In this document: positions 28,733-37,535 of the stretch, in pieces
Numbering within the stretch: the stretch's first letter is position 1
Layout of the letters: each line of letters begins with the position of its first letter
Virus record (IMG/VR): IMGVR_UViG_3300021961_000263
Coordinates: 1 to 37,535 of that record
DNA from: a virus
DNA length: 37,535 bases
Strand: one strand, 5' to 3'
Notes under the pieces: generated by a model
Databases searched by the model: none
What the model was told of the DNA's origin: nothing
What the model saw: the letters and a program-made list of their open reading frames with translations, nothing else
Program-made: the position numbers and the translations under genes

Positions 28733-29012
28733 TTACAATCTCCCATGCGGCAGCAGCATATCCTGCGATATCTGCGTAGTTATCCTTGACACGCTCATTC
28801 TCAATTATGCGCGCAATCTTGAGAAGAATCATCATGTTGCAAACATCGACTCCATCAAGCGCATCATGCGCAGGAGCTGCAACCTTTAGGTAAGCATTCC
28901 AAAGACTTGCAGTTCGGTAGTCGAGGTTAAGGCTAGGTGGACCGTAGTCCTTGTTCCTTGCACCTGCAACTACTTCCGAAACTTCCTTCAGCAAATCAGA
29001 CTGCGTACTCAT
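28725..29012 (-). CDS. DUF6378-like protein
   Basis: This 95-aa protein contains NKDYGPPSLNLDYRTASLWNAYL, DALDGVDVCNMMILLKIARI and KDNYADIAGYAAAAWEI, the three ordered blocks of a widespread phage family known as DUF6378. Members lie near nucleotide-metabolism genes, and the pattern of an acidic 'DxxGY' end suggests a MazG-like helical fold, but activity is unproven. ATG 29012 is chosen because GGAG lies seven bases before it. Confidence 0.72.
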   Translation of the reverse strand: MSTQSDLLKEVSEVVAGARNKDYGPPSLNLDYRTASLWNAYLKVAAPAHDALDGVDVCNMMILLKIARIIENERVKDNYADIAGYAAAAWEIVNG

Positions 29013-29347
29013 CACTCGCTCCATTCGCTTGGCACCGTCCGCAACCGATTACGGAACCTATTCTCCCAATCATTTTTTCCCATGCCATGAACCACCTGGT
29101 TCTTTTTCCGCCACAACTGCCGCTGCCCCGGCGTCAACCCACCAAACATGCCATGGGTTGTCTGTGTCTCATTCGCATACCAAAGACACTCTTCCCACAC
29201 CGGGCATGTCTGGCACACCTCTCTTACAAACGGGTCATAGGTATTGTCGCTAAAGAACAAATCGGTGTCCATGTTGCGACAGTTTGCTTTCGGCATCCAC
29301 GATTGCGCATCTATAACAGCCTGGAATGTTTTCTGCAAATCACTCAT
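29012..29347 (-). CDS. WhiB-family Fe-S transcription regulator
   Basis: This 111-aa protein has Cys23, Cys45, Cys48 and Cys54 with the WhiB spacing (C - CxxC - C) and GMFGGLTPGQR at 66-76, the G[VIM][WF]GG turn of WhiB. It is an actinobacterial protein class that binds a 4Fe-4S cluster and region 4 of the host sigma factor. Phage WhiB copies can alter host gene expression and block superinfection. The N-terminal ~15 residues and a basic C-terminus extend the core. ATG 29347 follows AGGAG by six bases. Confidence 0.88.
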   Translation of the reverse strand: MSDLQKTFQAVIDAQSWMPKANCRNMDTDLFFSDNTYDPFVREVCQTCPVWEECLWYANETQTTHGMFGGLTPGQRQLWRKKNQVVHGMGKNDWENRFRNRLRTVPSEWSE

Positions 29348-29459
29348 CAATCTCTCCTATCCAATGCATCTGATTCCCGCTCTTTCTCCAGAGCATTTCT
29401 TCTCGGTACACCTCGAAAGCTAGCTCCTCCGCCCAATCATCCGAGAACTCAGCGCCCAT
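29340..29459 (-). CDS. 39-aa acidic peptide upstream of whiB-like gene
   Basis: ATG 29459 lies seven bases after GGAGG. The product begins MGAEFSDDWAEELAFEVYRE and is acidic. It overlaps the WhiB-like start by eight bases and the end of the upstream 82-aa gene by 40 bases, so it is probably a small coupled gene. No motif is recognised. Confidence 0.5.
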   Translation of the reverse strand: MGAEFSDDWAEELAFEVYREEMLWRKSGNQMHWIGEIDE

Positions 29460-32988: not shown

Positions 32989-33043
32989 TACAACTGAGCG
33001 GCCGGTCGGCTTGGCGACGAATATCTTTTCAGTAACTGCCATA

Positions 33044-33080
33044 CTGACGCCATCTCTCCTCTGTCCCAACTGTACGGGAG
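33044..33080 (-). repeat. Regulatory repeat R2
   Basis: On the minus strand CTCCCGTACAGTTGGGACAG then AGGAGAGATGGCGTCAG. Best aligned to R3 55 bases away and to R1 at 31709. Confidence 0.62.
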
Positions 33081-33098
33081 CTGACTAACAGGGGGGGA

Positions 33099-33135
33099 GT
33101 CACGCCAGCTCTTCTCAGTCCCCACTGTGCGGAGC
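33099..33135 (-). repeat. Regulatory repeat R3
   Basis: On the minus strand GCTCCGCACAGTGGGGACTG then AGAAGAGCTGGCGTGAC. It shares CAGT-GGGAC-GAG-AGAG-TGGCGT with R2. Confidence 0.62.
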
Positions 33136-33168
33136 GCGACGAGAGGGAACGGGCGCGCGTGTGCGGAC

Positions 33169-33192
33169 GGGGGGCAGCCGAAGCTGCCCCCC
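33169..33192 (-). terminator. GC hairpin with TTCG loop after the OB-fold-like gene
   Basis: GGGGGGCAGC (33169-33178) pairs with GCTGCCCCCC (33183-33192) around a four-base loop, read TTCG on the minus strand. It is very stable but has no T run, so it could be a processing or attenuation site ending the first early gene. Confidence 0.6.
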
Positions 33193-33201
33193 GCCGCGCG
33201 G

Positions 33202-33483
33202 TCACGCGACGCCCTGGAGCGTGTACGATGCCCACGCGCCCTTCGCGTTCGAGTACGCGCCGACGCGCACGCGGAGGGTGACAATGTCACCCACCGCGAC
33301 GCGCCGCTCGCCTCCGGCGAGCGACGGCAGCACGACGGCATCGCCGTCGATGCTGGCGTCGTCGAAAGCGGACACGAACGCGTTGCGCTGGTCCTGCCGC
33401 ACCTTGAGCGAGACGAACTCGCCGTTCTTGCTCTCACGGGTCTCGAATGAGACCACGCGCGCTTCGAAAATGTCGACGGTCAT
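33202..33483 (-). CDS. OB-fold-like small protein (possible SSB), intact copy
   Basis: This 93-aa protein starts at ATG 33483 with GGGGG six bases upstream. It has the beta-barrel style FEARVVSFETRESKNGEFVSL, then DGDAVVLPSLAGG, VAVGDIVTLRVRVGAYSN and SYTLQGVA. Strand-rich small proteins of this type often bind single-stranded DNA, and the early position agrees. It is the first gene of the early arm. Its 5' end, leader and 3' end recur as a broken, inverted copy at 33578-33763. OB assignment is from pattern only. Confidence 0.62.
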   Translation of the reverse strand: MTVDIFEARVVSFETRESKNGEFVSLKVRQDQRNAFVSAFDDASIDGDAVVLPSLAGGERRVAVGDIVTLRVRVGAYSNAKGAWASYTLQGVA

Positions 33484-33620
33484 CGTCGACCCCCTTTGCT
33501 TGATGTGCGCTAGCCGGCTGGCTAACACCCGTCATTGAACCAGTGCCCCGCAGTTTGGGGTGCTGGTATCAATGACCAGCCAGCCGGCTGCCATCAACCA
33601 AAGGGGCTCGAGGATGTCGA
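33481..33620. repeat. Large imperfect palindrome between divergent arms
   Basis: Left arm 33481-33523 and right arm 33578-33617 are inverted repeats: AGCCGGCTGGCT/AGCCAGCCGGCT (12 of 12), TTGATG/CATCAA (6 of 6), CCCCTTTG/CAAAGGGG (8 of 8) and CATC-TCGA/TCGA-GATG. The core 33532-33575 nests TCATTGA/TCAATGA and a CCAGTGCCCC/GGGGTGCTGG stem (two wobble pairs, loop GCAGTTT). It could form a long cruciform or a hairpin in the 5' leader of the OB gene. Confidence 0.88.
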
Positions 33621-33763
33621 CACCGCCCGAGGCGCGTGGCTCGTCCCCGAGACCCGCGAGAGCTGGCGAGTCTCGCCAGGTGCGCTGGACGCAGCGCACG
33701 GGCGCGTGGGCATGGACCCGCACGCGGGTTCCCCCAGCGTCGCCAGCTCTCGCTATGTGACCT
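33578..33763 (+). pseudogene. Inverted, internally deleted copy of the OB-fold-like gene
   Basis: Read on the plus strand, the region from ATG 33614 matches the 5' end of the intact gene (GTCGAC, GAGACCCG-GAGAGC, CAAGGTGCG-like) with a net 4-base loss in the first ~54 bases. It then jumps to sequence matching the intact gene's last codons (GGGCGCGTGGGCAT, CGTCGC, TGTGACC). About 165 bases of the middle are missing. Translated pieces VDTARGAWLVPETRES and EARVVSFETRES correspond. It seems to be a dead duplicate created by an inverted duplication. Confidence 0.75.
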
Positions 33764-33794
33764 AGGGCCATGTATTTTACCTCAGAACGGGTTT

Positions 33795-33936
33795 TGGACA
33801 TCCGAGATGATTCCGGCACCACTCCGGCTTGGGGCCAGAAAGCAATCCAATTTTGTCCATAGGCATTTGGACAGACTGACATCCAATTTTCGGGCCACTG
33901 TCTTCAATTAATGGACTACTGTGCGCTGTCCGCACA
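33795..33936. promoter_or_regulatory. Cluster of TGGACA/TGTCCA half-sites (operator-like)
   Basis: TGGACA occurs at 33795 and 33868, TGTCCA at 33854, related TGGAC and TGTCC near 33912 and 33927. The 33854/33868 pair forms a dyad with an 8-nt gap. ATCCAATTTT is repeated at 33845 and 33881. A TGTGCG/CGCACA hairpin lies at 33920-33936. The cluster sits just upstream of a promoter-like sequence at 33952. Confidence 0.5.
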
Positions 33937-33951
33937 AACCGCTTTGCTTAC

Positions 33952-33982
33952 TTGACTTCCTTCTGAAATCTATGGGTATACT
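33952..33982 (+). promoter_or_regulatory. Sigma-70-like promoter for the late arm
   Basis: TTGACT at 33952-33957, TATACT at 33977-33982, 19-nt gap (slightly long). The downstream bases TATACTGGTTTT recur at 11775. Placed about 100 bases before the first late gene. Confidence 0.6.
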
Positions 33983-35998: not shown

Positions 35999-37535
35999 AC
36001 CGTAGGCAGCAACTTGAGCAGGCTTACGCCGAACTTCTTTGGCGTCATTATGCAAACAATCCTGCCGATTTCTTCAGGGACTGCGTGTTTGTGCCGGCCG
36101 GGGAGAAGCTTGGCGGGGCAGAGGGGCGCACAAATTTCGAGTTGTTCGATTACCAGGTTGAGACGCTACAGACGATTCGCGATAATCGTTATGTGATTGT
36201 TCTAAAGGCGCGTCAGCTGGGTCTGACGACCCTTATGATGGCGTATGCGTTCTGGATGTTGCTGTTTCGTCCGGGTTCTAACATCGTCCTAGTGTCAAGA
36301 AGCCAGAGCGCAGCAAACTCTGCACTTGAAATCATGGACTTTATGTACAACTTCCTGCCGGAGTGGGCGAAGAACAGGGGTCCTGGGGTAGAGTCTGACG
36401 CTGCAACCCACCATTCGTACCGCTTCAACAATGGAATTGTTTCAAAGATTACGTCTTACGCCGCCACAAAGACGGTGGCAGCCGGTCAGACGGCGACTCT
36501 GGTGCTTTGGGACGAGGCCGCACTGGCCGAATACCAGGAGGATGCGTTCAGAACCCTGCTCCCGACGACCGACGCAGGCGGTTCGATGGTGGTATTCAGC
36601 ACCGCGCGTGGTGGTTACAACCAGTTCGCCCGCATTTACAGGGACGCGGAGCGTGGCGAGTCGCAGTTCAAGCCCATTTTTCATCCTTGGTACGCATCAA
36701 GATTTATGAATCCGCTTGCTGATATCGGAAAAGTCGACAATTCTCTATACGAATTAAAGCGTCGGGACATGTCGAATGAGCCTTGGCGCTTCTTTGCGGA
36801 GTATCCAAGCAGTTCCGAGGAAGCATTTCGTCAGTCTGGGCGCGCTAGGTTTGCAAACCTGCCAGATTTGGAAAAATTTGAGGCGCTGCCCTACCAGGGA
36901 AGCATCAACGTTGATATTAATGGCGCTCCAATGCTTGAAGCGAAGGGCGAAGGGCCGCTCCAATGGTCCGACTACGCTCTTTATGGGACGCCAAGGGGGT
37001 GTCGAGCCGTCATTGCTGTCGACCCATCGGGCGGAACGGGTGGTGACTACACCGTAATTACCTGCGGATGGGTGAATCACGACGGAATTCCAGTCCGCGC
37101 GGCCGTTTGGCGCTCGAATGAGTTCGAAGCGCAGGAGATTGCTGAGGAATCTTTCCTTCTTGGTAAGTATTTTGCCGACGAGACGGGCCGAGACGCCCTT
37201 ATTGTGGTTGAAAGGCAGGGTGGGTACGGAGAAACCACCGTCCACGGCCTTCGTCAGATGGGCTACCGTAATCTTTACGTCCACAGGTACACCGGGCACC
37301 GTAAGTACAAGCAGGACACGTCCTATGGCTTCCCAATGACCATGACCAGGCGTCCGTTGGTGGTCGATGCGCTTGCTGGGTGGCTGGATTTTGAGAACGA
37401 CAACGTTCTTATTGGAATTGACAAGGAACTCAGGCGAGAGCTAGGCGCGTTTGTGGTCCGAAACGATGGCAGAGTGGCGGCAGACGACGGAGAATACGAC
37501 GATTTGGTCATGTCGACGGCAATCTTCGTATATGT
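35995..37535 (+). CDS. terL: Terminase large subunit (runs off the right end; continues at 3-305)
   Basis: The full chain across the junction is 568 aa. Residues 71-79 KARQLGLTT form the deviant Walker A, and LVLWDEA at 169-175 the Walker B with catalytic Glu. The RNase H-like nuclease has Asp343 (AVDPSGGTGGDY), Glu406 (VVERQGGYGE) and Asp503 (YDDL, in the left-end part). ATG 35995 is in an ATGA overlap with terS. It powers packaging and cuts the concatemer. Circular closure with the overlap inside this gene agrees with a permuted headful type, but cos or short terminal repeats cannot be excluded. Confidence 0.94.
   Translation, partial: MNRRQQLEQAYAELLWRHYANNPADFFRDCVFVPAGEKLGGAEGRTNFELFDYQVETLQTIRDNRYVIVLKARQLGLTTLMMAYAFWMLLFRPGSNIVLVSRSQSAANSALEIMDFMYNFLPEWAKNRGPGVESDAATHHSYRFNNGIVSKITSYAATKTVAAGQTATLVLWDEAALAEYQEDAFRTLLPTTDAGGSMVVFSTARGGYNQFARIYRDAERGESQFKPIFHPWYASRFMNPLADIGKVDNSLYELKRRDMSNEPWRFFAEYPSSSEEAFRQSGRARFANLPDLEKFEALPYQGSINVDINGAPMLEAKGEGPLQWSDYALYGTPRGCRAVIAVDPSGGTGGDYTVITCGWVNHDGIPVRAAVWRSNEFEAQEIAEESFLLGKYFADETGRDALIVVERQGGYGETTVHGLRQMGYRNLYVHRYTGHRKYKQDTSYGFPMTMTRRPLVVDALAGWLDFENDNVLIGIDKELRRELGAFVVRNDGRVAADDGEYDDLVMSTAIFVY
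37397..37535. repeat. Terminal overlap, right copy
   Basis: Same 139 bases as 1-139, differing only at two positions (37407 and 37409). See left copy. Confidence 0.95.

Follow-up and report, generated by a model that had tools for sequence, protein, structure and literature searches.

The window, that is, the whole 37,535-nucleotide stretch analysed here (IMG/VR record IMGVR_UViG_3300021961_000263), carries its early genes on the minus strand and its late genes, including the terminase from 35935, on the plus strand. Its two ends (1-139 and 37397-37535) overlap by 139 bases and another locus, L003, spans the joint. Since L003 joins the end to the start, we take the window to be a complete genome of about 37.4 kb with a circular map, although the record is classed as linear. 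The early and late genes diverge at only one place in this genome, and that junction is filled by an imperfect palindrome, the strongest of the whole window, which scores 87 in a palindrome scan against 27 for the runner-up. It is held in a G+C-rich island (33000-33760) that reaches 72% in a surrounding genome of about 50%. The early genes include one for a WhiB-like transcription factor (29012-29350, minus strand), from which we infer a probable actinobacterial host, with signals of a different kind.

The coding arm of the palindrome is a small, intact early gene (33202-33483, minus strand), encoding a 93-residue protein. It has no match in Pfam or PHROG, and no relatives were recovered from the viral contigs, phages or plasmids searched. 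Its single-sequence AlphaFold model is all-beta, with every match to the PDB at E > 0.1, and at a pLDDT of 58.7 it is too weak to settle the identity of the protein, which is possibly an OB-fold. The gene leader (33484-33530, minus strand) holds a ribosome-binding-site-like stretch, AAAGGGGG, and is paired with 33577-33613. The apex of the palindrome is a central nested hairpin (33531-33576) with its loop at 33550-33556, and the fold around this centre (about 33480-33640) has a z-score of -9.6. Beyond it lies the mirror arm (33557-33763, plus strand), a noncoding, gap-riddled inverted copy of the leader and gene. Directly past the stop codon of the gene stands a perfect hairpin, GGGGGGCAGC-TTCG-GCTGCCCCCC (33169-33192, minus strand), which is terminator-like but has no T run, and is accordingly omitted by a terminator scan requiring one. 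On the strength of the fold, the leader, mirror complement, apex, gene and hairpin are presumed to form one early transcription unit (33151-33900, minus strand). Between the mirror arm and the late genes, two 29-base direct repeats (72% alike; 33826-33890) end in ATCCAATTTT and might be an operator pair, while TTGACT and TATACT with a 19-base spacer (33952-33982), ahead of the late genes, might be a late promoter.

The sequence-only reading had claimed that the intact gene faces an inverted, degraded copy of itself, and this copy proved to be real. Local alignment of the reverse complement of 33202-33523 with 33578-33763 scores 81, far better than 1000 dinucleotide-preserving shuffles of the same arms, none of which exceeds 34. 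Taken by themselves, the leader part scores 44 (shuffles at most 25) and the gene part 47 (shuffles at most 34). The best contiguous alignment couples 33557-33707 with 33378-33549. The blocks said to be shared by the leaders are present (AGCCAGCCGGCT, CATCAA and AAAGGGG), as is the one matching the last codons of the gene, where 33228-33241 and 33700-33713 agree at 14/14 positions. The middle of the gene is indeed missing from the copy, but the gap comes to about 140 bases (33242-33383) and not the ~165 proposed, because gapped homology with many small gaps runs on to 33384/33698; within this gapped stretch, 16-nt arms at 33430-33445 and 33648-33663 match at 94%. Likewise, the axis does lie inside a nested hairpin, though near 33553 instead of ~33550. 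The gapped arms total 127 matches and 14 mismatches, with 12 gaps in the mirror and five in the gene arm, and the longest perfect pairing run is 12. Frame-breaking gaps occur throughout the mirror arm and it retains no ORF. The centre, which had been put forward as a potential control site, is a strong hairpin sited at the early/late junction.

The window palindrome itself is known from one assembly. At the same junction, two loci whose terminase is 65% identical to that of the window (L005 and L006) carry another small gene, again facing an inverted, gapped copy of that gene (score 103 against at most 43 in shuffles). They come from separate samples and show seven differences over 10,421 bases, while a third sample (L007) repeats the outer part of their arrangement. 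An assembly artefact is unlikely, as these separate samples agree and each arm differs considerably from the other. The lowest-energy fold of L005 has many local hairpins within the mirror arm rather than a pure rod. This locus also has a second imperfect palindrome (2162-2301; score 58; arms of about 70 nt) just upstream of an amidoligase-like gene. In a further relative of the window, L013, the G+C-rich island holds other genes and the palindrome is absent; the fold there is a shallow nest with a z-score of -5.0. Short gapped inverted repeats at the early/late divergent junctions of other phages (L018, 664-756, score 39; L034, near 4080, score 33) are perhaps small forms of the mirror element.

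The same kind of arrangement was met in L092, an AT-rich marine phage unrelated to the window, which came up among loci sampled for a different purpose. Its arms of 618 and 471 nt have 411 matches and 35 mismatches, with 44 gaps in the mirror and 12 in the gene arm, and a longest perfect pairing run of 17. A search of IMG/VR with a profile of its gene2 recovered 42 loci (L133-L174, including L092 itself and several near duplicates), all of which have the palindrome, scoring 228-504 when extended; several of these relatives have more matched bases than L092. Their mirror arms, of about 300-900 nt, face two genes in a constant order: TerS, mirror arm, apex, gene1, gene2. The elements sit beside terminase genes in DNA virus contigs of up to about 55 kb. 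A gap-friendly palindrome scan was also tried and was too noisy. In every element described here we observe arms that are complementary, and the arrangement recurs at the same junction with different genes.

The TerS of the marine family is related to those of HMO-2011-type phages. The family is absent from the cultured phage records searched, and the cultured HMO-2011, HTVC033P and CRP-207 tested negative for the palindrome. Two cultured pelagiphages with a related TerS, HTVC103P and HTVC115P, looked positive by a wobble-tolerant score, but their folds showed no rod and they were rejected as carriers. As these two phages and L013 are without it, the element is dispensable in some lineages. 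None of the genes of the marine family has a Pfam or PHROG match above the cut-off, the gene2 profile has no match in the bacterial genomes searched, and at E below 0.001 no PDB fold matches the gene2 model (pLDDT 93). In most pairs gene2 shows purifying selection, with pN/pS of 0-0.2 in seven out of 10. A conserved block, GGGTRGGCAGGAGACCAtaCCCtCtaCCC, occurs on the late strand 270-370 nt ahead of TerS, next to the mirror arm or within it; candidate roles are an operator, a pac site or an RNA element.

Transcription signals frame the element in the marine family. Two back-to-back sigma-70 promoters with 17-base spacers lie between the mirror and TerS: in all 20 representatives one of them (TTGACA, 17 bases, TATAAT-like) aims through the mirror to the genes while its partner reads TerS, and the far side has no comparable promoter directed the other way. 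The -10 box of the TerS promoter ends about 7-10 bases before the ATG, such that the TerS mRNA looks nearly leaderless. A terminator, comprising a hairpin and then seven or more T, follows gene2 in each of the nine loci read. Given this placement of promoter and terminator, the simplest reading of the mirror is as the 5' leader of an early transcript that spans the two arms. No promoter of sigma-70 type could be recognised in the window, and the signals of its probably actinobacterial host may differ. The presumed window unit has a predicted RNA fold with a minimum free energy of -466 kcal/mol (z-score -19.3) and 153 pairs round one centre, against at most 124 in shuffles. The marine locus L144 gives an unbranched fold (z-score -19.1) with 347 nested pairs round one centre, against at most 207 in shuffles, and L131 an unbranched rod with 502 pairs.

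We then tested nine separate close pairs from the marine family for paired positions that had changed on the two arms together. Such double changes occurred at 126 sites, compared with 34.3 expected from the single rates. The substitution was identical on the two arms at 82 sites in register, as opposed to 1-9 when the mirror was slid by 1-6 bases. Such a pattern is what single-base compensation would look like. Independent decay cannot produce such coordinated change of the noncoding and coding arms and is ruled out for the marine family; because gene2 is under purifying selection while the arms co-change, both the protein and the pairing are kept.

These results bear directly on the account of the sequence-only reading, namely a plain inverted duplication of which one half decayed. 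Under this explanation small deletions would have broken up a palindrome that replication does not tolerate, and the window mirror would be functionless. A shortened inverted copy of the gene and leader does face the intact gene, and the excess of gaps in the mirror over the gene arm, both in the window and in L092, agrees with decay, as does the absence of the palindrome from L013. The loss of any reading frame from the mirror is likewise a property of pseudogenes. A pseudogene, however, changes independently of its gene, and the marine arms do the opposite. Moreover, the palindrome persists in all the marine loci, and the arrangement returns at the same junction with unrelated genes. Decay is not supported as the whole story, and we regard it as a possible but less likely explanation of the window mirror.

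An alternative is that the palindrome acts as DNA, with a one-strand hairpin or cruciform serving as a replication origin or as a packaging site by the small terminase gene. Its position is suggestive in this respect, being near the cumulative GC-skew minimum in the window genome and beside TerS in the marine family; yet gene orientation alone could equally give that minimum, and neither an origin protein nor an iteron was identified. A further consideration is the strand asymmetry of the mismatches. In five marine clades these are mostly G.U on the opposite strand and A.C on the presumed transcript, at 43:6 (L136), 45:5 (L142), 44:8 (L148), 47:5 (L150) and 36:6 (L172), with 48:6 also among the clade tallies; in L131 the antisense strand folds better than the presumed transcript (-581 against -455 kcal/mol). 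No such asymmetry is seen in the window (6:9) or in L092. The asymmetry, which counts against a rod in the early RNA, favours selection on the opposite strand or a strand-biased mutation process, and its source could be an antisense RNA, a single-strand DNA hairpin, strand-biased mutation of the mirror or mismatches favoured on the transcript. As proof of an antisense RNA it is contradicted by the direction of the promoter. It does sit well with hairpins of the late strand, where G.T would be the milder mismatch, but the promoter and terminator on either side of the marine element mark it as a transcription unit, and we consider a DNA role rather improbable. The least probable explanation is that recurrent template switching between the arms, for which palindromes are known substrates, keeps them alike by quasi-palindrome correction rather than by selection for pairing: this would account for likeness within a phage alongside divergence between phages, but the identical substitutions are mostly isolated, with an unchanged mismatch or bulge surviving within 8 nt of 69 of the 82, which disfavours conversion tracts, as these would have erased such neighbours.

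We therefore return to the mirror as a working part, probably not just a dead gene and most likely one side of a long hairpin in early RNA. For the window, we put at roughly one in two the probability that its right half is a maintained mirror arm, forming part of an early-RNA rod that would act in cis and bury the point where the first early gene begins. That the arms co-change, which way the promoter points and where the terminator lies are observations on the marine family; in the window, which has neither a close relative nor a recognised promoter, the leader and rod role is suggested by the anatomy, and we infer that it works like the marine elements, that the RNA is made and that translation is affected. 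Transcription would start beyond the mirror, read the mirror complement, pass the apex and only then enter the gene. The RNA could then fold back into a long, interrupted rod, hiding the ribosome-binding site and the gene start. As pairing would begin at the apex, beside the first ribosome-binding site, occlusion may be immediate, and translation of the first early gene or genes would be lowered, or would depend on timing, processing or the action of a melting factor. Interrupted helices would make poor substrates of RNase III, and the small bulges, by keeping perfect duplex short (at most 12-17 bp), may have this effect. More tentatively, the early mRNA of some dsDNA phages may be a rod, encoded by a dedicated transcription unit in which the long 5' leader is a mirror complement that evolves with the one or two small genes behind it, held to them by single-base compensation. 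Such an mRNA might have arisen with unrelated genes, in phages of different hosts, at the early/late junction, and control either the start of infection or the encounter with host dsRNA-sensing or RNases.

Several known systems resemble this element in part. Obelisks, which are viroid-like circular RNAs encoding Oblin proteins, are self-complementary RNA rods of about 1 kb with one or more ORFs along one arm and are common in the sea (PMC11922315). The rod shape with ORFs on one arm is alike; however, obelisks are RNA-only replicons with no DNA counterpart, whereas the phage rod is encoded in dsDNA genomes with terminase genes and is framed by a promoter and terminator. The same DNA-encoded, framed unit distinguishes it from the hepatitis delta virus, which has a similar outline, and neither the window nor five relatives matched an Rfam family at the gathering score, so none shows the self-cleaving ribozyme that some obelisks carry. 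In the eukaryotic inverted-duplication hairpin genes (hpRNA and young miRNA loci), an inverted partial copy stands opposite a coding gene, and the RNA is likewise a long imperfect hairpin, but the phage hairpin includes the gene itself, and no Dicer or Argonaute pathway is known in the phage case. GOLLD, ROOL and other large phage-associated RNAs are also large and structured; unlike the rod, which has no Rfam match, they are noncoding with multibranched folds. Known long-range 5'-leader structures pair tens of bases, while the phage rod pairs hundreds, across one or two whole genes and the terminator. They are alike in pairing the leader with the initiation region, by which bacterial and phage mRNAs conceal their ribosome-binding sites (compare PMC3014915, on T4). 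As a search of the open-licence literature found no description of a counterpart, we rate this kind of element, a putative RNA, as new.

Base-by-base tracking of a gene by its mirror copy is unlike the behaviour of a pseudogene. If the RNA is made, it would represent a new way of building a regulatory or protective phage RNA, in which a gene is wrapped in its own imprecise complement. Such elements are recognisable in genomes without experiment, and whether bacteria sense or exploit a long phage hairpin RNA thereby becomes a directly testable question.
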